Assembly: GCF_014218335.1 (NCBI RefSeq)
Contig: NZ_AP023367.1
Coordinates: 4,273,501 to 4,337,500 of the forward strand
Source of the DNA: Anaerocolumna cellulosilytica
Lineage (GTDB): Bacteria > Bacillota > Clostridia > Lachnospirales > Lachnospiraceae
Direction: 5' to 3'
DNA length: 64,000 nucleotides
Shown here: positions 17,176-41,854 of the stretch, one piece after another
Layout: each line of letters opens with the position of its first letter
How positions within the stretch are numbered: position 1 is the stretch's first letter
The notes under the pieces: generated by a model
What the model was told of the DNA's origin: nothing
The model's input: the letters and a program-made list of their open reading frames with translations, nothing else
Databases searched by the model: none
Position numbers and translations under genes: made by a program

Positions 17176-18660
17176 TTAATGAGTATTTGACCGGTTTCTT
17201 CCGACTGCCTCTAACCAGCCATTTATTTTTTGTTCTCGTGCACTTTCCGCAAGTTCCGGCTGGTATCCTTCATAGGTTATATTATCAGACAAACAACCAG
17301 AGCGAAAGACTCCAAGAGTTACGCCTGCCAGATAACTGCAACCGAGCACGGATAATTCCTCTACTTGGGGTATACGAATGGTTTTTCCAAGAATATCAGC
17401 TTGAAACTGCATTAAATATTTATTTCCTGTGGGACCTCCGTCCACTCTTACTTCCTGTACAGGAATGCCAGCATCCTCCTCCATAGCACGTACTACATCA
17501 TTAATCTGATATGCAATGCTGTCAAGAACTGCTTTAACCATCTCATTTCTCCCAGTTATACGGGTCATACCGCAAAAGCCGGCTTTTGCTTTGGAATCCC
17601 AATAAGGAGCTCCAAGTCCTGAAAAAGCAGGTACAAAGTAGGTAGAATCTTTGGGATTTGCCCCCCATGCCAGTTCTTCTGTCTCTTTCGGGGAAGCAAT
17701 TAATTTAACATCATCCTTTAGCCAGGTGATTACCGCTCCGGAATAATTTAAGTTACCTTCCAGTACATAATTTACCTTGCCGCTAATTCTCCATGCCACA
17801 GAAGAAGCCAGACCGTTTCTGCTAAATATAGGGGTATCACCAACGTTCATCATAATAGACGAACCGGTTCCATAGGTTGCCTTCACCATACCATGCTCAT
17901 AACAGCATTGGGCATATAAAGCGCCATGAGAATCCCCCATAATACTCCGAATCGGAACGGGATGATTCAAATACCCCTCAAAGTCTGTTACTCCGTAATC
18001 CCCGTCAGAATCCGTTATTTCCGGAAGCCTATCCTTATCTACCTGAAACAGGGAACAAATTTCTTCATCCCAGTTTAAAGTCTTTAAATTCATAAGTTGG
18101 GTACGGGAAGCATTGGAACAATCCGTTTTATACACTTTCCCGCCCGTGAGCCGATATACCAGATAACTGTCCATAGTGCCAATACAATAGTCTTTATAAA
18201 ACTGCTCCTTCTTTAATACGTTAGATATCAGCCAGGACATCTTTGCTGCCGGAAAATAAGGTGATAGGGGAAGCCCTGTTTTTCTTAGTATTCTACTGCC
18301 GTATCCTAACTCCTTAAGTCTTTCTGTAATTTCCTGTGCTCTTGCGCATTGCCATACTACAGCAGTAGAAAGCGGTTTTCCAGTAGGTTTATCCCAAAGA
18401 ATCGTCGTTTCCCGCTGATTACTGATACCAACCCCGGCAATCGCTTCTTTACTTACCTGCGCTTTTTCAAGTAACTTGGGAATTAATTGTATGACATTCT
18501 TATATATTTCATCTCCGTCATGGGATACCCAGCCTTTATCATTTATAATCTGCCGGTGCAAAAGGTCTGTACGGCATACAATGGCCCCTTTATGATTTAA
18601 GAGTACTGCCTTAGTACCCTGCGTACTTTGGTCAATTCCTAGAATATATTGTTCACTCAT
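17176..18660 (-). CDS. FGGY-family carbohydrate kinase
   Basis: A 494-residue kinase. The opening GIDQSTQGTKAVLL is the first phosphate loop, GISNQRETTILWD and the central GDSHGALYAQ/TYGTGSSIMMN segments are typical of the family, and GLGAPYWDSKAKAGFCG with VDGGPTGNKYLMQFQAD closes the C-terminal domain. It resembles glycerol/xylulose-type kinases but the operon points to a ketopentose or similar. It overlaps the transketolase C-subunit gene by 4 bp (ATGA), so translation is coupled. It probably phosphorylates the ketose made by the isomerase for cleavage by the transketolase. Confidence 0.88.
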   Translation of the reverse strand: MSEQYILGIDQSTQGTKAVLLNHKGAIVCRTDLLHRQIINDKGWVSHDGDEIYKNVIQLIPKLLEKAQVSKEAIAGVGISNQRETTILWDKPTGKPLSTAVVWQCARAQEITERLKELGYGSRILRKTGLPLSPYFPAAKMSWLISNVLKKEQFYKDYCIGTMDSYLVYRLTGGKVYKTDCSNASRTQLMNLKTLNWDEEICSLFQVDKDRLPEITDSDGDYGVTDFEGYLNHPVPIRSIMGDSHGALYAQCCYEHGMVKATYGTGSSIMMNVGDTPIFSRNGLASSVAWRISGKVNYVLEGNLNYSGAVITWLKDDVKLIASPKETEELAWGANPKDSTYFVPAFSGLGAPYWDSKAKAGFCGMTRITGRNEMVKAVLDSIAYQINDVVRAMEEDAGIPVQEVRVDGGPTGNKYLMQFQADILGKTIRIPQVEELSVLGCSYLAGVTLGVFRSGCLSDNITYEGYQPELAESAREQKINGWLEAVGRNRSNTH

Positions 18661-19589
18661 ACCAGTAACTCCATGACGGCTGTGACTATTCCCTGCGCAT
18701 TTAGATTATAATAGTCAAATACCTGCTTTGAATTACCTGTAATAACAGGTTCATCCGGTAAGGACAGATTCATTACCTTTTTGGGATTCTCCCTTGCTGT
18801 TATCTGGCTTACCAGACTGCCAAGCCCTCCCAGATATGTATGCTCTTCTACAGTTACTACCGCCTTTACTTCATTGAGATATTTTAAGAAAGTAACTTCA
18901 TCAAATGGTTTAATACAATACATGTCAAGAAGTGCTGCCTTCACTCCCTTTTCCTTTAGCAGGTTTACCCCGTCAAGAGCCGGTCTGACCATTTCTCCGC
19001 AGGCAACAACCAGTACATCACTGCCCTCTGCTAAAACGGTAGCCTTATTCATAACAAAAGAAGTATCTTCTGGTGAATATACATCCTCTACAGGATTACG
19101 TCCAACACGGATGTATGCCGGTTTTTCATCTGAAAGCAATGCTTTTATAAGACATTTAGTCTGATGTCTGTCACTTGGCAGATAAACGCGCATATTTGGA
19201 ATAGACCCCATAATAGCAATATCCTGAGCTGAATGGTGAGTCATTCCCAGTGCACCATAACTAACTCCACCACTAATACCAATCAGCTTTACATTGGTGT
19301 TTGAATAAGCTACATCAACCTTTGCCTGTTCCATGCTTCTGGTACTTAGAAAGCAGGCGGGGGATGCTGCATAGGCTTTTTTCCCACAGCTTGCCAAACC
19401 GGCTGCAATACTCACCAAACTTTGCTCTGCAATACCAACTTCTACAAACTGCTCCGGATGAGTATCTGCAAAAGGTGCTAAGGAAGCAGAGCCTCTGGAG
19501 TCACTGCATAAGACAACAATATCCTTATCCTTCTTCGCTTCCTCCACTAGTACATCACATATTACCTGGCGATTTGGTATTTTATTCAT
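18657..19589 (-). CDS. Transketolase, C-terminal subunit
   Basis: A 310-residue protein covering the pyrimidine-binding and C-terminal domains of transketolase: FVEVGIAEQSLVSIAAGLA holds the catalytic Glu for thiamine diphosphate, with GMTHHSAQDIAIM and YIRVGR. It works only with the N-terminal subunit encoded next to it. I start it at 19589 (MNKIPNRQ), where AAAAGGAGGG precedes and the gene overlaps the partner's stop by 8 bp; the frame extends to 19622 without a better site. The split form is common in Firmicutes. Confidence 0.9.
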   Translation of the reverse strand: MNKIPNRQVICDVLVEEAKKDKDIVVLCSDSRGSASLAPFADTHPEQFVEVGIAEQSLVSIAAGLASCGKKAYAASPACFLSTRSMEQAKVDVAYSNTNVKLIGISGGVSYGALGMTHHSAQDIAIMGSIPNMRVYLPSDRHQTKCLIKALLSDEKPAYIRVGRNPVEDVYSPEDTSFVMNKATVLAEGSDVLVVACGEMVRPALDGVNLLKEKGVKAALLDMYCIKPFDEVTFLKYLNEVKAVVTVEEHTYLGGLGSLVSQITARENPKKVMNLSLPDEPVITGNSKQVFDYYNLNAQGIVTAVMELLV

Positions 19590-20418
19590 TTGCAGCCCTC
19601 CTTTTCTCCTCAAGTTCCTCAAGCCCTGCTCTTAACTCCTGCTCTGTCGGCACCTTATGATGCCATCCTGCTTTATTCTCCATAAAGGATACTCCGTATC
19701 CCTTTGTGGTATCTGCTATAATGACTGTGGGCATTCCCCTAGTTTCCTTTGCTTTTATAAAAGCCTCATCCAAAGATTTTATAGAGTTACCCTCTGCATG
19801 GATTACATACCATCCAAAGCTTGCAAAACGTTTCTCCAGATTATCATGGGACATAACATCTTCCGTACTGCCTGATATTTGCAAGCGGTTCCTGTCTACA
19901 ACCGCACACAAATTATCCAACTTGTAATGACCTGCCGCCATGGCTCCTTCCCAAACGGAACCTTCTGCTAATTCCCCATCCCCCATTACAGTATATACAC
20001 GGTAAGTCCTCCCGTCTTTTTTCCCTGCAAGTGCCATACCAACCGATACCGATAACCCATGTCCAAGAGAGCCGGAATTCATCTCGATGCCATTTATCTT
20101 GTTATTAGGATGTCCAATATATTTTGACAGGTACGTAGAATATGTCAGAAGCTCCTCCTTTGGGAAAAAACCTTTGTCACAAAGAACTGCATATAAAGAT
20201 TCAACGGAATGGCCTTTGCTAAGAATAAACCTATCTCTGTCCGGGTCTTTTTCTCTGCCCGGTGCCACGTTCATATGTATATAGTATAAGGTAACCAGAA
20301 TATCCATAACGGAAAAGTCACCGCCAATGTGACCGGTCTTTGCCTGGTAAATCATGTGCAAAACAGTTTTGCGAAGCTCAAATGCCTTTGCTGTTAAGTT
20401 CTCCATTCTAATAACCAT
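19582..20418 (-). CDS. Transketolase, N-terminal subunit
   Basis: A 278-residue protein with the thiamine-diphosphate domain: GHIGGDFSVMDILVTLYY, KGHSVESLYAVL, GSLGHGLSVSVGMAL and the GDGELAEGSVWEGAMAAGHY to DRN metal-binding motif. Together with the adjacent subunit it transfers two-carbon units between sugar phosphates. The start is either 20418 or the ATG four codons on. A hairpin lies between it and the isomerase gene. The kinase and isomerase neighbours suggest a dedicated catabolic transketolase rather than the housekeeping one. Confidence 0.9.
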   Translation of the reverse strand: MVIRMENLTAKAFELRKTVLHMIYQAKTGHIGGDFSVMDILVTLYYIHMNVAPGREKDPDRDRFILSKGHSVESLYAVLCDKGFFPKEELLTYSTYLSKYIGHPNNKINGIEMNSGSLGHGLSVSVGMALAGKKDGRTYRVYTVMGDGELAEGSVWEGAMAAGHYKLDNLCAVVDRNRLQISGSTEDVMSHDNLEKRFASFGWYVIHAEGNSIKSLDEAFIKAKETRGMPTVIIADTTKGYGVSFMENKAGWHHKVPTEQELRAGLEELEEKRRAANE

Positions 20419-20431
20419 CCCTTTCTAAAAT

Positions 20432-20463
20432 CTGCAAACGTTGGGAACTGACCAACTTTGCAG
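20432..20463 (-). promoter_or_regulatory. Intercistronic hairpin in the sugar operon
   Basis: CTGCAAA/TTTGCAG and GTTGG/CCAAC pair around a short loop, between the isomerase and transketolase genes. No T-run follows, so it more likely marks processing or mRNA stability than termination. Confidence 0.45.
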
Positions 20464-20520
20464 GTGACATTGTTACATATCACGTTAGTTTCCCGTATAC
20501 CCTTCTATCCTTTATTCGCG

Positions 20521-21921
20521 CTATTCTCCTCGAATAAAGGCTCTTACCTCTTCCTCTATTGGATCATATAGATCCGGTGTTACTCCAATGTATTTACAGG
20601 CTTCATACAGAACCGGAACCACATTTTTATGGATGCCTACACAGTGATGGATATAAGGACCGCAGACCAGCTTATCCTCAAGACGTTTTAGATTAGCTAC
20701 CTCAACCCATACATAAGTTCCTTTTGTATAGGGTCCCTCCACACCTTTTGCATTGCCAAGCAATAAGGAGTACTCTCCGTTATCACCATCAAATCTGGCA
20801 AGGGTCATATTCCCGAATTTAGCTTGTGCTTCCACTGCTCCCGGATAATCAAACGCCAAAGGATACCCGATGGTAGGTTTTTCCTGAGCAACCGAAATAG
20901 GCCATGGACCACAGTGCTGTAAAAGTTCTCCATTTTCGTTATCCGGATGTCTTACAGTCCAATCTGCGAAGAAACTTCTGGCCTCGTCCATACCGGCAGC
21001 TTCTACCATAAGAGACGTTATCGCTCCGTGTATGTCTGTTTCACAGACTACAGGGATGCCTTCTTCATTTAATAAGGAGTTGGCAGCACAAGGCATAATG
21101 CCAATTTCTCCCTGCAAAGCATTCCAGCACTGGATAGCAATGGCTTTACAACCATATTTATCTGCCAGCCTTTTCATTGCTACTTTAAGGGCTGCAATGC
21201 TTTCAAGCTGCTCCTCACCTACTTTTATGTTCATGGCTTCCTTACAATACGCCACTACCTCAAGGATTTCTTTTCCTTCTGCTTTTACTTTCTTTACCTC
21301 TTGAATTAATTCCGGCATGGGTATAGGTGCTAACTGGATATTAAAGCGTTCTAGCAATTCCCCTTCATTACACATGGTTGACCAAAAATCAAAGGGTCTA
21401 GGAGCAATCTGAAGGATACGGATGCTTCGAAAGGTTTTAACCACACTACAGACTGCAAGGAAATTACGTATGCCTCTTTCGAATTCAGTATCCGTTAATC
21501 TGCAATTTGTCAGGTAAGTAAAGGGTACCTGAAATCTTCTTAGCACTTTACCAGTGGCAAATAATCCACACTGGCTGTCTCTAAGACGTATTCCGTCTTC
21601 ATCCGGTCTTTCATCCCTTGGGCCCCAAAGCAGCACCGGTAAGTTCATTTCTCTTGCAAGTCTTGCAACTACATACTCTGTACCAAAATTACAGTGAGGA
21701 AAAAATAGACCATCTACCCCTTCTTTTCTAAACTTATCCATAATTTTAATGCGGTCAGCCTCATCATAAAATAATCCTTCCTCATTAATATCAGTTATGT
21801 CTACAATCTCTACCCCCAATTCCTTAAGCCTCTTTCTGGTTAAATCGGCATATTTTACTGCATCAGGCGCACTGAAAATACTTCTTCTGGTTGGTGCAAA
21901 ACCTAACTTGATTTTTTTCAT
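20521..21921 (-). CDS. L-fucose/L-arabinose isomerase family protein
   Basis: A 466-residue cytosolic protein of the FucI/AraA-like superfamily that interconverts aldoses and ketoses. It starts KLGFAPTRRSIFSAPDAVKY, has the VDGLFFPHCNFGTEYVVARLA segment, a carboxylate-rich middle (CNEGELLERF, CETDIHGA) and a C-terminal GPYIHHCVGIHKN. GGAG precedes the ATG. It is the first gene of the operon and is divergent from a LacI regulator. With a sugar kinase and split transketolase downstream it would start a pathway aldose to ketose to ketose phosphate to central metabolism. The substrate is not readable. Confidence 0.82.
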   Translation of the reverse strand: MKKIKLGFAPTRRSIFSAPDAVKYADLTRKRLKELGVEIVDITDINEEGLFYDEADRIKIMDKFRKEGVDGLFFPHCNFGTEYVVARLAREMNLPVLLWGPRDERPDEDGIRLRDSQCGLFATGKVLRRFQVPFTYLTNCRLTDTEFERGIRNFLAVCSVVKTFRSIRILQIAPRPFDFWSTMCNEGELLERFNIQLAPIPMPELIQEVKKVKAEGKEILEVVAYCKEAMNIKVGEEQLESIAALKVAMKRLADKYGCKAIAIQCWNALQGEIGIMPCAANSLLNEEGIPVVCETDIHGAITSLMVEAAGMDEARSFFADWTVRHPDNENGELLQHCGPWPISVAQEKPTIGYPLAFDYPGAVEAQAKFGNMTLARFDGDNGEYSLLLGNAKGVEGPYTKGTYVWVEVANLKRLEDKLVCGPYIHHCVGIHKNVVPVLYEACKYIGVTPDLYDPIEEEVRAFIRGE

Positions 21922-23321: not shown

Positions 23322-23493
23322 GGTATCTGATAAATTATATCATTACAATTCTTGTTATTGTTGCTTTTGCAACAAATAAAATTGAGACACTATGTTATAC
23401 TACAAATGTGCCGACCTATAGACACAAGCTAACAGCACACTATGATATCAACAAACCTTTACTTATGTTATAACTTTTGAAAGGATGCTTACT

Positions 23494-24747
23494 ATGTCTC
23501 AATATTTTGAAATTACAGATACTATATATGATATTACAGAAAAATATCCGGAAACCATTGAATTATTTATAGCGAATGGCTTTGATAATCTTAGCAATCC
23601 GGTAATGCGACAGACCCTTGGTAAAACCATCACCCTTGACATGGCTTTATCCATGCGTAAAATAAATCAAGAAATTTTCGTGCAAAAGCTTAAGGAGGCC
23701 ATTGAGCAGATCCTTCCTGATTTGTCCACCGGACTTTATGCCATGAAGGAGGAAAATGGCGGTGATATTCGTATTGAAGGGGTATTGCCCTGCCCCATAA
23801 GACTTCCTCTTTTGGAGAAATTTGAAGACTTTGCAGCCTCCCAAAAAGATAGTCTTGATTATAAGGTAGATTATAATTTAAAGTCTGCTAACCTGGGACT
23901 AGATGATGTGAAAGAAAGAGTAGTTGCCGCAGACGGTAATGGAGATGCCCTGTCAGACTTGTACTTATCAGCTGGTTTTGACTTATTTTTTGATAAAAGT
24001 TTAATGGGACGTTATAGGGATGCCGGAGTCTTTGAAGATATTTCAGGAATCGAACAGGTGAATACAGACTTTGATAATGACCACATTTCATTAAAGGACC
24101 CAAAAAAGCAATATGCTATTATCGGTGTTGTACCGGCAATTTTTATGGTAAATACTGCTGTCTTGGGCGATCGTCCTTTTCCTGAAAGCTGGGAAGATTT
24201 AATGAATCCTGCATTTGAAAACAGCATAAGTCTGCCGATGAAAGATTTGGATATGTTTAATGCATTTTTACTCCATATTCATCGCTATTATGGAAATGAA
24301 GGCATAGAAAAAATGGGGCGCTCTCTTTTACACAACATGCATCCTGCACAGATGGTCAAATCCCATATACAAAAAGGTGGTAACACAGTTCCCACTGTTA
24401 CCGTAACACCTTACTTCTTTGCAAGTATGGTTGATAAAAAAAGCCCTCTGCGTCCGGTATGGCCAAAAGACGGTGCAATTATCAGTCCTATTTTTCTTCT
24501 TGCCAAGAAACAAAATAAGGACAAAATAAAACCTTTTGTTGATTTTCTCTATTCAAAGGAAATAGGTGAAATTTTATCTTCTAACGGTAAATTCCCTTCT
24601 ACAAATCCTCTCGTAGACAATCATTTAAGTCCAGACCAAAAATTTATGTGGTTAGGGTGGGATTATATTTATAACAACGATATTGGTAAGCTGATTACGG
24701 ATACGGAACGCCTGTTTTATGGCGCATCGGGGAAGGAGTCTGTATGA
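23494..24747 (+). CDS. Cytosolic solute-binding-like protein with DUF1858-like N-domain
   Basis: A 417-residue protein. Residues 1-70 (ITDTIYDITEKYPETIELFI and on) look like a DUF1858/ScdA-type helical domain. From about residue 90 the sequence follows class II ABC solute-binding proteins of the ferric-ion type (LYLSAGFDLFFD, GVVPAIFMVNTAVLGDR, PFPESWEDLMNPAF, FVDFLYSKEIGEILSSNGKFP). It has no signal peptide or lipobox, so it should stay in the cytosol, which is abnormal for the family. I start at the second ATG (23494), 8 bases from AAAGG. It overlaps the GTPase gene by 4 bp. Role unknown. Confidence 0.75.
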   Translation: MSQYFEITDTIYDITEKYPETIELFIANGFDNLSNPVMRQTLGKTITLDMALSMRKINQEIFVQKLKEAIEQILPDLSTGLYAMKEENGGDIRIEGVLPCPIRLPLLEKFEDFAASQKDSLDYKVDYNLKSANLGLDDVKERVVAADGNGDALSDLYLSAGFDLFFDKSLMGRYRDAGVFEDISGIEQVNTDFDNDHISLKDPKKQYAIIGVVPAIFMVNTAVLGDRPFPESWEDLMNPAFENSISLPMKDLDMFNAFLLHIHRYYGNEGIEKMGRSLLHNMHPAQMVKSHIQKGGNTVPTVTVTPYFFASMVDKKSPLRPVWPKDGAIISPIFLLAKKQNKDKIKPFVDFLYSKEIGEILSSNGKFPSTNPLVDNHLSPDQKFMWLGWDYIYNNDIGKLITDTERLFYGASGKESV

Positions 24748-25445
24748 ATCTGATTATCTTTTCCGGACCTCCTTCCTCCGGCAAGACATCTGTAATTTTA
24801 AAAACGATTGCCGCTTTTAAGAACAGAAATATTAAAGTAGGTGTCGTTAAGTTTGACTGCCTGTATACGGATGACGATATAGCATATGAAAAAGCAGGTA
24901 TTCCGGTAAAAAAAGGCCTCTCGGGTGCTCTTTGCCCTGACCACTTCTTTGCTTCCAATATAGAAGAGGTTGTTAATTGGGGTAACCAGGAAAAACTGGA
25001 TTTATTAATAACGGAGTCAGCAGGACTTTGTAATCGTTGTTCACCCTATTTAAAAGAAATGAAAGGTGTTTGCGTTATTGATAACCTTTCCGGAATTAAT
25101 ACACCTAAAAAAATCGGCCCTATGTTAAAATCCGCAGACTATGTAGTTATCACCAAGGGTGATATAGTCTCCCAGGCAGAACGTGAGGTCTTTGCATCCT
25201 GTGTAAGCTCTGTAAATCCCAGAGCTGTCATTATGCATGTAAATGGACTGACGGGACAGGGTGCCTATGAATTGGGAAGCCTGTTGTATGATGAAAATCA
25301 GGATATACAGTCCGTACAGGGCATGCAGCTTCGTTTCCCCATGCCTTCCGCTCTTTGTTCCTATTGTCTTGGGGAGACAAGAATTGGCGAAGCCTATCAA
25401 ATGGGAAATATTAAGAAAATAGATTTAAAGGTGGATAAACCATGA
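24744..25445 (+). CDS. G3E-like P-loop GTPase (HypB/UreG-like)
   Basis: A 233-residue P-loop protein. Walker A is GPPSSGKTSV at residues 8-17; LLITESAGLCNRCSPY corresponds to the switch region of metallochaperone GTPases such as HypB and UreG; VVITKGDIVS stands for the base-recognition loop (TKGD instead of NKxD). Cys pairs CNRC and CSYC, the latter followed by GETRIG near the C-terminus, could bind a metal or cluster. It overlaps both neighbours by ATGA, so the three proteins are probably made together. Metal or cofactor delivery is an inference. Confidence 0.75.
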   Translation: MNLIIFSGPPSSGKTSVILKTIAAFKNRNIKVGVVKFDCLYTDDDIAYEKAGIPVKKGLSGALCPDHFFASNIEEVVNWGNQEKLDLLITESAGLCNRCSPYLKEMKGVCVIDNLSGINTPKKIGPMLKSADYVVITKGDIVSQAEREVFASCVSSVNPRAVIMHVNGLTGQGAYELGSLLYDENQDIQSVQGMQLRFPMPSALCSYCLGETRIGEAYQMGNIKKIDLKVDKP

Positions 25446-26449
25446 CAAACTGGAGTATAGAAAAACTATTGAAAGAATATCCCTTTACGGCAACCTACTT
25501 CGAGCAAAATAAACTGGATATTGCCGGATATGAGGAGAAAACCTTTGAGGCGTTTTTGGAACATTTTACCATAGAAGAACTGGAAGACCAGGCAATTGAC
25601 AAAGAAAAGCTGTTAGCAGACCTTCCACTCTTTATAAAGCAGATGCTCGCCTTTCTTGGGATTGAAAAGGATAATCAGGTCTATTCTCTGACCATTCTGC
25701 CGGGTCATGATAAATCCGGTAATACAGAAGGCTTTAAAGAATTTACAGTGAATACCTCAGAGATTGTTTCCATTGTAGGACCTACCGGTTCCGGCAAGAG
25801 CCGCCTGTTAGCTGATATTGAATGGACAGCTAAAGGAGATACTCCTACCGGCCGCAGTATTCTAATCAATGGAAACATACCGGATAATAAATGGCGTTTT
25901 TCCTCAAACAACAAGCTGGTTGCACAGCTGTCTCAGAACATGAATTTTGTAATGGATTTAAGTGTAGCGGAATTTTTGAAAATGCATGCAGTAAGCCGTC
26001 TCGTGGAAAATCCGGAAGCTGTTATTCAGCGGATTATTGAGGCCGCAAATAATCTTGCAGGCGAAAAGTTTAATCTAGATACTCCTGTAACCAGCTTAAG
26101 CGGCGGACAATCCCGTGCTTTGATGATTGCAGATACTGCCATATTAAGTTCTTCTCCTATAGTGCTGATTGATGAGATTGAAAATGCAGGAATTGACCGT
26201 AAAAAAGCCCTTGAGCTTTTGGTCTCAGAGGATAAAATCGTCTTAATGGCTACCCACGATCCGCTTTTAGCTCTTATGGCTAACAAACGAATTATAATCA
26301 AAAATGGCGGTATACACAAAGTGATTTTTACGAGTGACGAAGAAAAGACCTTGTTAGAAGAGCTTGAAAAAGTCGATGCATTGATTCAAAATACAAGGCA
26401 GGAGCTCCGTAAAGGAAATACGCTGTCATTAAAAAATCTGGAACAATAG
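25442..26449 (+). CDS. Soluble ABC ATPase with DUF1858-like N-domain
   Basis: A 335-residue protein. The first about 75 residues (WSIEKLLKEYPFTATYFEQN) resemble the helical domain at the start of the first gene of this unit. An ABC ATPase domain follows: Walker A GPTGSGKSRL near residue 113, Q-loop LSQNMNF, signature SLSGGQSRALMIAD, Walker B IVLIDEIENAGID, and the switch His in MATHD. There is no membrane domain, no permease nearby, and the solute-binding partner is cytosolic. Use of ATP in assembling or loading a protein is more likely than transport. Confidence 0.75.
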   Translation: MTNWSIEKLLKEYPFTATYFEQNKLDIAGYEEKTFEAFLEHFTIEELEDQAIDKEKLLADLPLFIKQMLAFLGIEKDNQVYSLTILPGHDKSGNTEGFKEFTVNTSEIVSIVGPTGSGKSRLLADIEWTAKGDTPTGRSILINGNIPDNKWRFSSNNKLVAQLSQNMNFVMDLSVAEFLKMHAVSRLVENPEAVIQRIIEAANNLAGEKFNLDTPVTSLSGGQSRALMIADTAILSSSPIVLIDEIENAGIDRKKALELLVSEDKIVLMATHDPLLALMANKRIIIKNGGIHKVIFTSDEEKTLLEELEKVDALIQNTRQELRKGNTLSLKNLEQ

Positions 26450-26558
26450 TATTCCTGATAGTTTCTAATAATCCATTTACAAATGAATGAATCTATTATA
26501 AATCAAGCTATATTTCAGAAAGACCCTAAGGGATTCTTTCCATACCGTTTAACAACAA

Positions 26559-26606
26559 GCCAGTTCTATATGCAATCATCCATGAGAAATTACATATAGA
26601 ACTGGC
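26559..26606 (+). terminator. Terminator of the GTPase/ABC unit
   Basis: GCCAGTTCTATATG pairs perfectly over 14 bases with 26593-26606, followed by a T-rich tract. It ends the three-gene transcript. Confidence 0.75.
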
Positions 26607-26648
26607 AGTGTTTTGTTTATCCAGGGCATTATAGGAAAAACGATTCAT

Positions 26649-40063: not shown

Positions 40064-41854
40064 TTATTTCACATATTCCAATGCTGAGGCTGCCGCAACA
40101 CGTCCAAATACTACAATATCTGCTACTGCATTACCTCCAATACGATTTGCTCCGTGAACACCTCCGGTTATTTCGCCAGCAGCAAATAAGCCTGCAATTG
40201 GAGTCCCGGTTGTAGCTATTACTTCTGCATTTGTGTTGATTTCAACCCCACCCATGGTATGATGTACACCAGGTGCCACTTTTATCGCATAAAATGGTCC
40301 TTGTGTAATATTATTATCCATTCCTGTATTTCTTCCAAATTCTTTGTCGTCTTTTGCCGCTACTGCATTATTCCAGGTATCTAATGTATTAGCTAGTGTT
40401 GTAGCATCAACACCAATCTGATTTGCTAATTCTTCGATAGTAGCACCCTGTACAGTAATATTATTTTCCACATATTTTTCAATTGCACTTAAATTATCGC
40501 GCAATAGTTGGTCAAAGATAATATAGGAATAGCTTCCTTCCTGTTTTACAATAGCATCCGAAACCACATCTCTGGTTAACAATTCATCTGTAAATCTTTT
40601 TCCTTCCTGATTTACTAATATTGCACCGCCGCCACGGACGGATTCTGTTATCATGATGCTTGTTGTCTGTTCTACCGTCGGATGTGTCTGAATCTGTTCA
40701 ATGTCCACCAAATTTGCCCCAATAGCTTCCGCCATTACGATACCGTCTCCGGTAGCACCTGGAGTATTCGTTGTAACATATCCCTTTAACTCTGGTTTAT
40801 ATTTTGTGTAAAGTTCTTCATTGGCTCCAAAGCCACCAGTGGCAAGTATTACAGCCTTTGCATGAATTGTATAATTTACTTCTTTACCTTCTGCTTTTAT
40901 TCCGGTAACTATATTATTTTCTGATGTAATTTCAGTTGCAGTTGTATTAAGCATCACCTGAATTCCTAAATCGTCCAGATTCTGATTAAACTTTTCTACT
41001 AAGTAAGCACCAACACCTGCGCCGCCTTCTGGTCTGTGAATACGTTTATTCGTTGCACCGCCGGAAAAAGAAACCTCAGGAAGCGGTGCTCCAATGGATG
41101 CTAACCAGTCAATTGCATCTGCTGAATTCTGAGCCATAACTGTAACTAATTCTTTATTGTTTACGTTATAGCCACCCGTCATGGTATCTTCAATAAATTG
41201 CTCTATCGTATCTTCTATTCCAAGCTCTGCCTGAACGGAAGTTTCGGCTGCATTCATACCACCGGTTGCTTTGATTGTATTTCCCCCAACCATTGGCATT
41301 TTTTCTACAATAATAACATTAACACCTGCTTTTTTGAGTTCAATTGCGGCAGTCATACCAGCTCCGCCGGCACCAATTACTACTACATCTACATCAAGAG
41401 TCTCTTCTTTTTTCTCAACTGCTTTCGTTTCTACAGCGGATAAAGTTGAAATATCAACTCCAGCACTTTCCAAAGCCTTAGTAACCGCTTCGATAACTGC
41501 ATTACTGGTCACTGTCGCACTTGATACAGTGTCAACTTCAACTGTTTGTTTCTCCACCATAAGAGATGGAAGCGTTTCAATTGCAACAGAACCAATTCCC
41601 TCTGTTTCACTGTCACCTACAACTGTTATTTCATCCATCTTATCGGCTGATAATACAACGGTAGCTACAACATCACCGCCGAAACCTTTTGCCGTTCCTT
41701 CATATGTACCCGGTTTAAATTTCCCTTCGGATGCCCCCGCTTCCTCATTTGTCGATTGACCTTGCTCTGTTCCGGTTGTTTGCTCTTTTTTCCCACATGC
41801 GGAAAGAGAGAATACAAGTATCAGCACCAGAACCAACGAAAATAGTTTTTTCAT
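40064..41854 (-). CDS. FMN/FAD lipoprotein reductase (urocanate/fumarate reductase type)
   Basis: A 596-residue surface lipoprotein: signal with lipobox FSLSAC, an FMN-binding domain (about 50-130) with the covalent-flavin motif DTVSSATVTS for ApbE-type attachment at Thr, then a FAD_binding_2/fumarate-reductase domain (VVIGAGGAGMTAAIEL near 158, IRVRRPEGG-like IHRPEGGAGVGAYL, HTMGGVEIN, GEITGGVHGANRIGGNAVAD). Such proteins reduce enoate substrates, such as urocanate or fumarate-like acceptors, outside the cell. Electrons would come from a membrane flavin chain. It follows a hybrid sensor kinase gene. Confidence 0.85.
   Translation of the reverse strand: MKKLFSLVLVLILVFSLSACGKKEQTTGTEQGQSTNEEAGASEGKFKPGTYEGTAKGFGGDVVATVVLSADKMDEITVVGDSETEGIGSVAIETLPSLMVEKQTVEVDTVSSATVTSNAVIEAVTKALESAGVDISTLSAVETKAVEKKEETLDVDVVVIGAGGAGMTAAIELKKAGVNVIIVEKMPMVGGNTIKATGGMNAAETSVQAELGIEDTIEQFIEDTMTGGYNVNNKELVTVMAQNSADAIDWLASIGAPLPEVSFSGGATNKRIHRPEGGAGVGAYLVEKFNQNLDDLGIQVMLNTTATEITSENNIVTGIKAEGKEVNYTIHAKAVILATGGFGANEELYTKYKPELKGYVTTNTPGATGDGIVMAEAIGANLVDIEQIQTHPTVEQTTSIMITESVRGGGAILVNQEGKRFTDELLTRDVVSDAIVKQEGSYSYIIFDQLLRDNLSAIEKYVENNITVQGATIEELANQIGVDATTLANTLDTWNNAVAAKDDKEFGRNTGMDNNITQGPFYAIKVAPGVHHTMGGVEINTNAEVIATTGTPIAGLFAAGEITGGVHGANRIGGNAVADIVVFGRVAAASALEYVK

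Follow-up and report, generated by a model that had tools for sequence, protein, structure and literature searches.

A three-gene unit of a cytosolic binding protein, a G3E GTPase and a permease-less ABC ATPase in Anaerocolumna cellulosilytica, with a predicted role in the anaerobic nitric oxide response

What can a bacterial cell do with the parts of an importer when no importer seems to be built from them? The question is raised by three overlapping genes in a 64,000-nucleotide stretch of the Anaerocolumna cellulosilytica genome (contig NZ_AP023367.1, positions 4,273,501 to 4,337,500), hereafter the window, encoding a solute-binding-like protein, a G3E-type GTPase and an ATP-binding cassette (ABC) ATPase (Table 1). 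Two parts of the answer are well supported: the unit is not a transporter, and, judging from upstream sequences, it belongs to an HcpR/FNR-type (nitric oxide, NO) regulon, with induction by NO predicted. The fuller explanation favored here, to which we give an even chance of being right, is a cytosolic nucleotide-driven machine, activated by an HcpR/FNR-type regulator under NO stress, that loads or repairs a metal or metallocofactor.

Conservation of the unit and the case against transport

The genes were compared in the best 80 of at least 493 relatives of the GTPase from named genomes, a set leaning to close relatives, some of them conspecific. Among the 79 of these loci used for gene order and neighbors, the binding protein and the GTPase were found in 79/79 each and the ABC protein in 77/79, the two loci lacking it ending at a contig edge; the GTPase is present also in L062, L081 and L094. 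The order binding protein–GTPase–ABC protein, on one strand and within 4 kb, holds in 77/77 full loci. This supports the inseparability of the three genes in the loci examined, and the co-occurrence in other genomes on which the first-pass annotation of the window had staked its proposal was found. The carriers among the best 80 belong to Firmicutes, Bacteroidota, Leptotrichia, Spirochaeta, Halanaerobium, Desulfobulbus and Aminicenantes. In an evenly drawn sample of the phylum, 8/249 genomes hold a GTPase of class I (the window's clade, with scores of more than 440 bits), and a sample of relatives contains 12 genomes with the trio, three of which (G005, G013, G079) fall into a sister clade by tree. 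The overlap of the window genes by ATGA at both joints (24744–24747 between binding protein and GTPase, 25442–25445 between GTPase and ABC protein), read from the letters at first pass, is confirmed by the open reading frame (ORF) coordinates; joints of exactly −4 bp, with starts picked by a script, occur in 34/82 (first) and 22/82 (second) full loci. An alternative in-frame ATG for the binding protein lies at 23485, the AAAGGA motif being better placed for 23494.

Two of the three parts come from importer families, the binding protein matching SBP_bac_6 (8e-79) besides DUF1858 (1e-17), and the ABC protein matching ABC_tran (1e-15) in Pfam. Hence, the unit could in principle be part of a transporter with an unlinked permease, or an importer that has lost its permease. 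However, no exported-looking N-terminus (signal peptide or lipobox, judged by hydropathy) was found among 87 homologs of the binding protein: the median N-terminal peak is 0.61 vs. 2.39–3.05 in four lipoprotein controls from the same loci, and the highest value, 1.56, belongs to an over-long start in L029. The lack of a signal peptide noted in the window is thereby borne out across the family.

No importer permease recurs beside the unit in a set of 91 loci (membrane neighbors other than FecCD were judged by eye; one locus stands twice in this set, L024 = L073, three loci, L029–L031, are from a sister clade, and L033 was left out as the same locus as L023). A FecCD-type permease adjoins the unit in 1/91 loci, L029 of the sister clade, where an importer ATPase and a lipoprotein stand beside it; L021, L038 and L078, which belong to the window's clade, have FecCD-type permeases in the fetched stretch that do not adjoin the unit. 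A same-strand protein with at least three predicted membrane segments occurs within a few genes in 32 loci, and these proteins are of many kinds. The most frequent adjoining one is a fused exporter (5/91 loci: L025, L051, L070, L072, L074), which in the member scanned combines ABC_membrane with ABC_tran, i.e., carries its own ATPase domain. The first-pass statement that the ATPase has no membrane partner thus stands insofar as no importer permease recurs, and has to be qualified for the sister clade; the linked permease, which was to speak against the proposal, adjoins the unit once in the 91 loci, in that clade. The extra N-terminal domain and the inseparable GTPase also argue against transport, and we regard this alternative as very unlikely. 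The earlier suggestion that transport parts were reused as a cytosolic machine gains partial support from the non-exported binding protein, the lack of an importer permease, the HypB/UreG-like GTPase and the inseparability of the genes.

The N-terminal domain said at first pass to be shared by both outer proteins is clear in one of them and weak in the other. DUF1858 was matched in 30/31 binding-protein members but in only 10/33 ABC N-termini (best E 6e-4), the domain of the window's ABC protein reaching 13 bits (E 0.11) where the cut-off is 32.2. Comparison of the two N-terminal profiles gave E 8e-5 at a probability of 33%, vs. E 0.53 for a reversed control. In L034, L059 and L079, a short ORF (76 aa in L079) corresponds to the ABC N-terminal domain alone, separate from the ABC ORF, as a result of a frameshift, a contig end or a separable nature of this domain.

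Operator, promoter geometry and NO-related neighbors

An HcpR-type operator is present upstream in homologs of the trio. The window itself has a perfect FNR-type palindrome, TGTTGCTTTTGCAACA, and a CRP/FNR-type palindrome was recognized upstream of the first gene in 56/87 loci, the window included. Perfect 6+6 palindromes with a spacer of 4 precede 45/87 first genes vs. a shuffled mean of 12.6; spacers of 2 and 6 are raised as well (42 and 39), as nested arms would give. The sequence GTAACnnnnGTTAC, identical to the consensus reported for HcpR2 in the part of PMC1274295 consulted, occurs within 250 bp upstream of 24/87 first genes and 18/31 hcp genes vs. 10/1284 other genes of the loci. A second form, GTTGn6CAAC, precedes, over the same distance, 30/87 first genes, 0/31 hcp genes and 15/1284 other genes, and altered spacers of the GTAAC and TGTTG arms gave 0 upstream matches. 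The promoter geometry is likewise constrained: a TATAAT-like hexamer (at least 5/6 bases) stands at +29.5 from the palindrome center in 43/55 trio sites, the next best offset reaching 7/55, and the same offset is found in 13/18 hcp sites. This geometry corresponds to an activator site near −41.5, which constitutes the class II CRP/FNR arrangement.

In G270, which carries three GTAACnnnnGTTAC sites, one lies about 1.3 kb before the GTPase gene, at the expected start of the first gene, and another just before hcp; G230 likewise carries three, of which one occupies the equivalent position ahead of the GTPase gene. In the window genome, TGTTGn6CAACA occurs at six sites (five for the reversed control), and apart from the site before the trio there is a single perfect TGTTGC...GCAACA, located between a divergent gene pair that includes a cupin gene. 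A homolog of this cupin (40% identity) stands next to the trio in L105 and L107 and two genes away from it in L100. A second TGTTGn6CAACA site of the window, at 40397–40412, is an imperfect palindrome.

The unit is also linked to genes of NO defense. A CRP/FNR-type gene adjoins the trio in 17/91 loci (these genes form two clusters, each checked with Pfam through one member), and hcp lies within 2.8 kb in 29/79 loci of Firmicutes, Halanaerobiales and Bacteroidales. A flavodiiron-like gene was seen in five loci, adjoining in three (the scanned member is below the NorV cut-off), and the fetched stretches hold NrfA in four loci, Rrf2 in four, DUF2249 in four and a DUF438-hemerythrin protein in three. 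The hcp gene of the window genome itself (L131, G000:C1:4182000-4194000) has an HcpR2 site and lies between a CRP/FNR gene and a hemerythrin gene, which stand two genes upstream and two genes downstream of it, respectively. Genes for Suf assembly lie 3' of the trio in seven loci, all from Lacrimispora or closely related bacteria. In L036 and L045 they follow the ABC gene immediately, and in the five others they are 5–11 genes away; the cluster members scanned match SUFBD_core, a cysteine-desulfurase-like family and NifU_N. A zinc-ribbon protein of 81 aa, starting MH(E/D)GC or nearly so, stands beside the trio in 23/79 loci (L026, L027, L048, L103 and others). It matches no family well (HypA at E 0.063, best solved match at E 0.13) and would at most be a candidate for a HypA-like role. 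A link of the unit to RIC was not used: RIC is over the cut-off in 5/9 class I genomes vs. 10/89 others, but 11 of these 15 belong to one genus.

The proximity of hcp suggests a narrower role for the trio, i.e., that of a dedicated maturase assembling or repairing the hybrid iron-sulfur-oxygen cluster of Hcp only. The operator type and promoter geometry common to trio and hcp would fit such a role. So would the distribution of hcp, present in 9/9 carriers of the window's clade vs. 42/89 other genomes in the sample of relatives (p 0.002, with four of the nine from one genus) and in 8/8 class I genomes vs. 169/241 others in the phylum sample (p 0.06), where it lies within about 5 kb of the trio in 6/8. 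On the other hand, 169/177 hcp-bearing genomes of the phylum sample lack a trio of the window's clade, and the one Hcp scanned adjacent to the trio is ordinary and very similar to solved Hcps. The survey of neighborhoods for a co-occurring metalloenzyme, proposed at first pass, thus yielded an often adjoining hcp, but also carriers that do without it: when 34 of the 50 loci without nearby hcp were searched, 7/34 had no hcp at all, six being metagenome-assembled genomes (perhaps incomplete) and one the complete chromosome of Leptotrichia hongkongensis. These carriers lowered our estimate of the Hcp-only role, which is now considered unlikely; because of them, Hcp is probably one client of the unit but not the only one.

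Putative metal motifs, likely cargo and rival readings

The broader explanation, loading or repair of metal centres, draws in part on the GTPase. It matches cobW/HypB/UreG (PF02492) at 2e-11 (44 bits vs. a gathering threshold of 20.7), and the six solved chains nearest to its model (mean pLDDT 75) are HypB and UreG. It shares the P-loop signature of these two GTPases, the P-loop residues are invariant among the homologs, and GTP hydrolysis is predicted accordingly from the kept P-loop. The Cys and His motifs CPDH, CNRC and CSYC are invariant in 33 homologs, in agreement with the HypB/UreG likeness and the Cys pairs picked out at first pass. Cys64 and His67 of CPDH align in sequence with the Cys-His pair of HypB, i.e., with the metal-site region, although model confidence is low at the C-terminal CSYC and in the surroundings of CPDH. 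The CPH motif of UreG and the metal site of HypB are the known counterparts. At the same time, the trio GTPase is not a HypB: it scores 59.3 bits with the HypB family, under the cut-off of 121.2, has extra CxxC pairs, and lies outside the HypB rows in a tree of 56 GTPases, where five HypB rows stand apart from the 51 others (support 100/100) and the 30 class I rows group together (92/97, below the tool's star threshold). It also differs from HypB and UreG in its partners, a binding protein and an ABC ATPase, and in having carriers without HypB or carbon monoxide (CO) dehydrogenase.

Delivery of nickel, an idea taken from the HypB fold, was rejected. In 14 carriers checked for a HypB-family match at E 0.001 and for CO dehydrogenase (with no separate search for UreG or further nickel proteins), 11 lack CO dehydrogenase, and three, Leptotrichia hongkongensis, Peptostreptococcus russellii and Peptoniphilus asaccharolyticus, have no HypB-family match besides the trio GTPase. 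Since these three have neither another such match nor CO dehydrogenase, nickel is an unlikely cargo.

The binding protein hints at iron. Among the 50 listed folds nearest to its model (mean pLDDT 84.5), 35 are titled ferric- or iron-binding proteins or kin of FutA, HitA, KfuA, SfuA and YfuA (TM-scores near 0.5 on the query). Across 31 sequences of the binding protein, Cys100, His283, Met287 and Tyr307 do not vary. From folds, motifs, neighbors and sister contexts, we infer metal handling, most likely of iron, and loading or repair of NO-damaged centers. The unit might then work as follows. An HcpR/FNR-type activator would switch it on during NO stress; within the cytosol, the binding protein would capture a small metallocofactor or a metal, with iron the likeliest; the GTPase would receive or gate this cargo through its Cys/His motifs; and the ABC ATPase, like SufC, would power the loading or repair of metal or Fe-S centers damaged by NO, the DUF1858 domains possibly serving as docking parts.

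Several observations weigh against this explanation. In 31/87 loci, the first gene has no recognized operator; the arms of the window operator, TGTTGC, differ from the TGTAAC before hcp of the same genome; GTAACnnnnGTTAC precedes hcp but not the trio in G000 and G012 and is found near neither in G323; and the totals of GTAACnnnnGTTAC in five genomes are not above those of a reversed-pattern control, except in G323 (3 vs. 0), so that it is placement, not number, that speaks. The loci counted stem from related genomes and do not amount to independent observations. The Suf linkage is limited to a single group of closely related bacteria, where shared descent could account for it, and the hcp-less carriers described above belong here as well. 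In the fold list of the GTPase, signal-recognition-particle-type GTPases follow closely behind HypB and UreG. Conserved residues but no metal site were seen, and the conserved stretch of the binding protein is P-Y-F-F, not the double tyrosine that the ferric site of FbpA has. Finally, by fold (P5PA) as well as by sequence, the solved structure closest to the binding domain is a pyridoxal-5-phosphate binding protein, so the ligand may be organic. AfuA follows by sequence. On this basis, the binding protein could carry pyridoxal phosphate or a thiamine- or flavin-like ligand, to protect or repair it under NO, with the two NTPases driving its delivery. The GTPase model and its CPDH and CNRC motifs point to a metal instead, as do the iron-binding proteins prevailing among the fold neighbors and the metal-chelate-type systems beside which the sister clades sit; we consider organic cofactor handling unlikely.

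A sensing role was considered in view of DUF1858, which occurs in Thermus DrpB, a protein linked to nitrogen oxides and nitrate respiration (PMC6282519, in the part consulted), and, according to the part of the corresponding report consulted, in a gene of the Bradyrhizobium NnrR regulon. If the binding protein and the two NTPases formed a signaling complex, its signal would be NO or a metabolite, and its output the regulation of other proteins. Domain searches found no DNA-binding, kinase or receiver domains in the three proteins, and CRP/FNR-type regulators already stand beside many units; signaling is accordingly viewed as improbable. Kinship of DUF1858 with the N-terminal domain of RIC (ScdA_N) is unsupported (1/18 members, E 0.19).

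Window layout, sister clades and comparison with known systems

Table 1. Features of the unit and its upstream region in the window
Feature	Position	Strand	Details
CRP/FNR (putatively HcpR)-type operator	23359-23374		Perfect palindrome, arms TGTTGC and GCAACA, spacer TTTT; ends 119 bp before ATG
-10 element TATACT	23396-23401	+	Starts 29.5 bp from operator center; operator near -41.5
Binding-protein gene (solute-binding-protein-like)	23494-24747	+	417 aa; DUF1858 and SBP_bac_6; no signal peptide
DUF1858 domain of binding protein (residues 8-62)	23515-23679	+	Pfam match
G3E (cobW/HypB/UreG) GTPase gene	24744-25445	+	233 aa; CPDH 64-67, CNRC 96-99, CSYC 205-208
Permease-less ABC ATPase gene	25442-26449	+	335 aa; Walker A, Q-loop, LSGGQ, Walker B and H-loop core residues invariant in 33 sequences
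ABC protein N-terminal domain, weakly DUF1858-like	25442-25681	+	Profile comparison, Pfam
Hairpin followed by T-rich stretch, likely terminator of unit	26559-26606	+	Folding energy and sequence; stretch 26440-26630 holding the hairpin: -43.9 kcal/mol, z -3.38

In the window, a LacI-type regulator gene precedes the unit, and an acetyltransferase-like gene (judged by eye) and two ABC exporter cluster genes lie 3' of it on the opposite strand; none of the flanking genes looks tied to the unit. Farther upstream (17176-21921, minus strand), an FGGY-kinase-like gene, split transketolase halves (by eye) and an isomerase weakly similar to the sulfoquinovose isomerase SftI (107 bits, cut-off 700) possibly form an unusual sugar or sulfosugar pathway.

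Relatives of the unit outside the window's clade were scanned in part of the loci, not in every locus of every lineage. In the tree of 56 GTPases, eight form a clade (support 96/95; L178, L182–L188) in which an ABC ATPase, a GTPase and a protein with the Fe-S domain PF04060 (one scanned) stand in fixed order, with no linked permease seen. The lineages L171–L177, L179–L180 and L029–L031 consist of a GTPase combined with an ABC ATPase, and many stand beside FecCD-type importers; in L171 there are two units of this kind, their GTPase starts 7.3 kb apart. Other neighbors include a BPD_transp_1 permease, methyltransferases, DUF364 proteins and nitrogenase component-1-like proteins, and a number of the lineages encode a cytosolic-looking SBP_bac_6 protein of their own, which in one case (L173) carries DUF1858. 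Complete importers with their own ATPase adjoin the unit in a sister clade, which in part goes against the first-pass view. Tentatively, and with more doubt than confidence, these lineages may be seen as a superfamily of soluble machines for metallocofactor loading or repair, in which a G3E GTPase and a permease-less ABC ATPase are combined with either a cytosolic binding protein or an Fe-S protein, one clade being a core of the anaerobic NO response and others serving metal-chelate importers, DUF364 or nitrogenase-like proteins, or an Fe-S protein.

Each part of the trio has a counterpart in systems already described. The binding protein shares fold and family with those of SBP_bac_6 importers (FbpA, FutA, AfuA, P5PA), whereas the trio lacks a signal peptide and a permease, has DUF1858 added and comes with an ATPase bearing its own N-terminal domain. 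Soluble ABC ATPases without a permease are known as the SufC type of Fe-S assembly, which the trio ATPase resembles in this respect and from which it differs in its partners. Operator consensus (at some of the loci), promoter geometry and gene neighbors are those of the HcpR regulon (hcp, frdX and others), but the main text of the 2005 paper on this regulon (PMC1274295) does not contain the words ABC or GTPase, and PMC12915319, in the part consulted, has no GTP and a single ABC transporter entry not tied to the trio. The nitrate-respiration proteins with DUF1858 and DUF2249 (DrpB) share DUF1858 and the link to nitrogen oxides, although no NTPase or binding protein is named in the consulted part of PMC6282519. 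Searches confined to the open-access literature listed no description of the trio. As the unit fits neither an ABC importer nor HypB, we rate the trio as a system, though not its parts, as categorically new.

To our knowledge, the repair of NO-attacked metal centers in strict anaerobes is poorly understood outside Hcp, RIC and the flavodiiron proteins. If the explanation favored here is true, the trio would be an unrecognized arm of the anaerobic NO response, under an hcp-type operator, in Firmicutes, Bacteroidota, Leptotrichia, Halanaerobium and others, in which the parts of an importer have been turned into a soluble, doubly nucleotide-driven machine.

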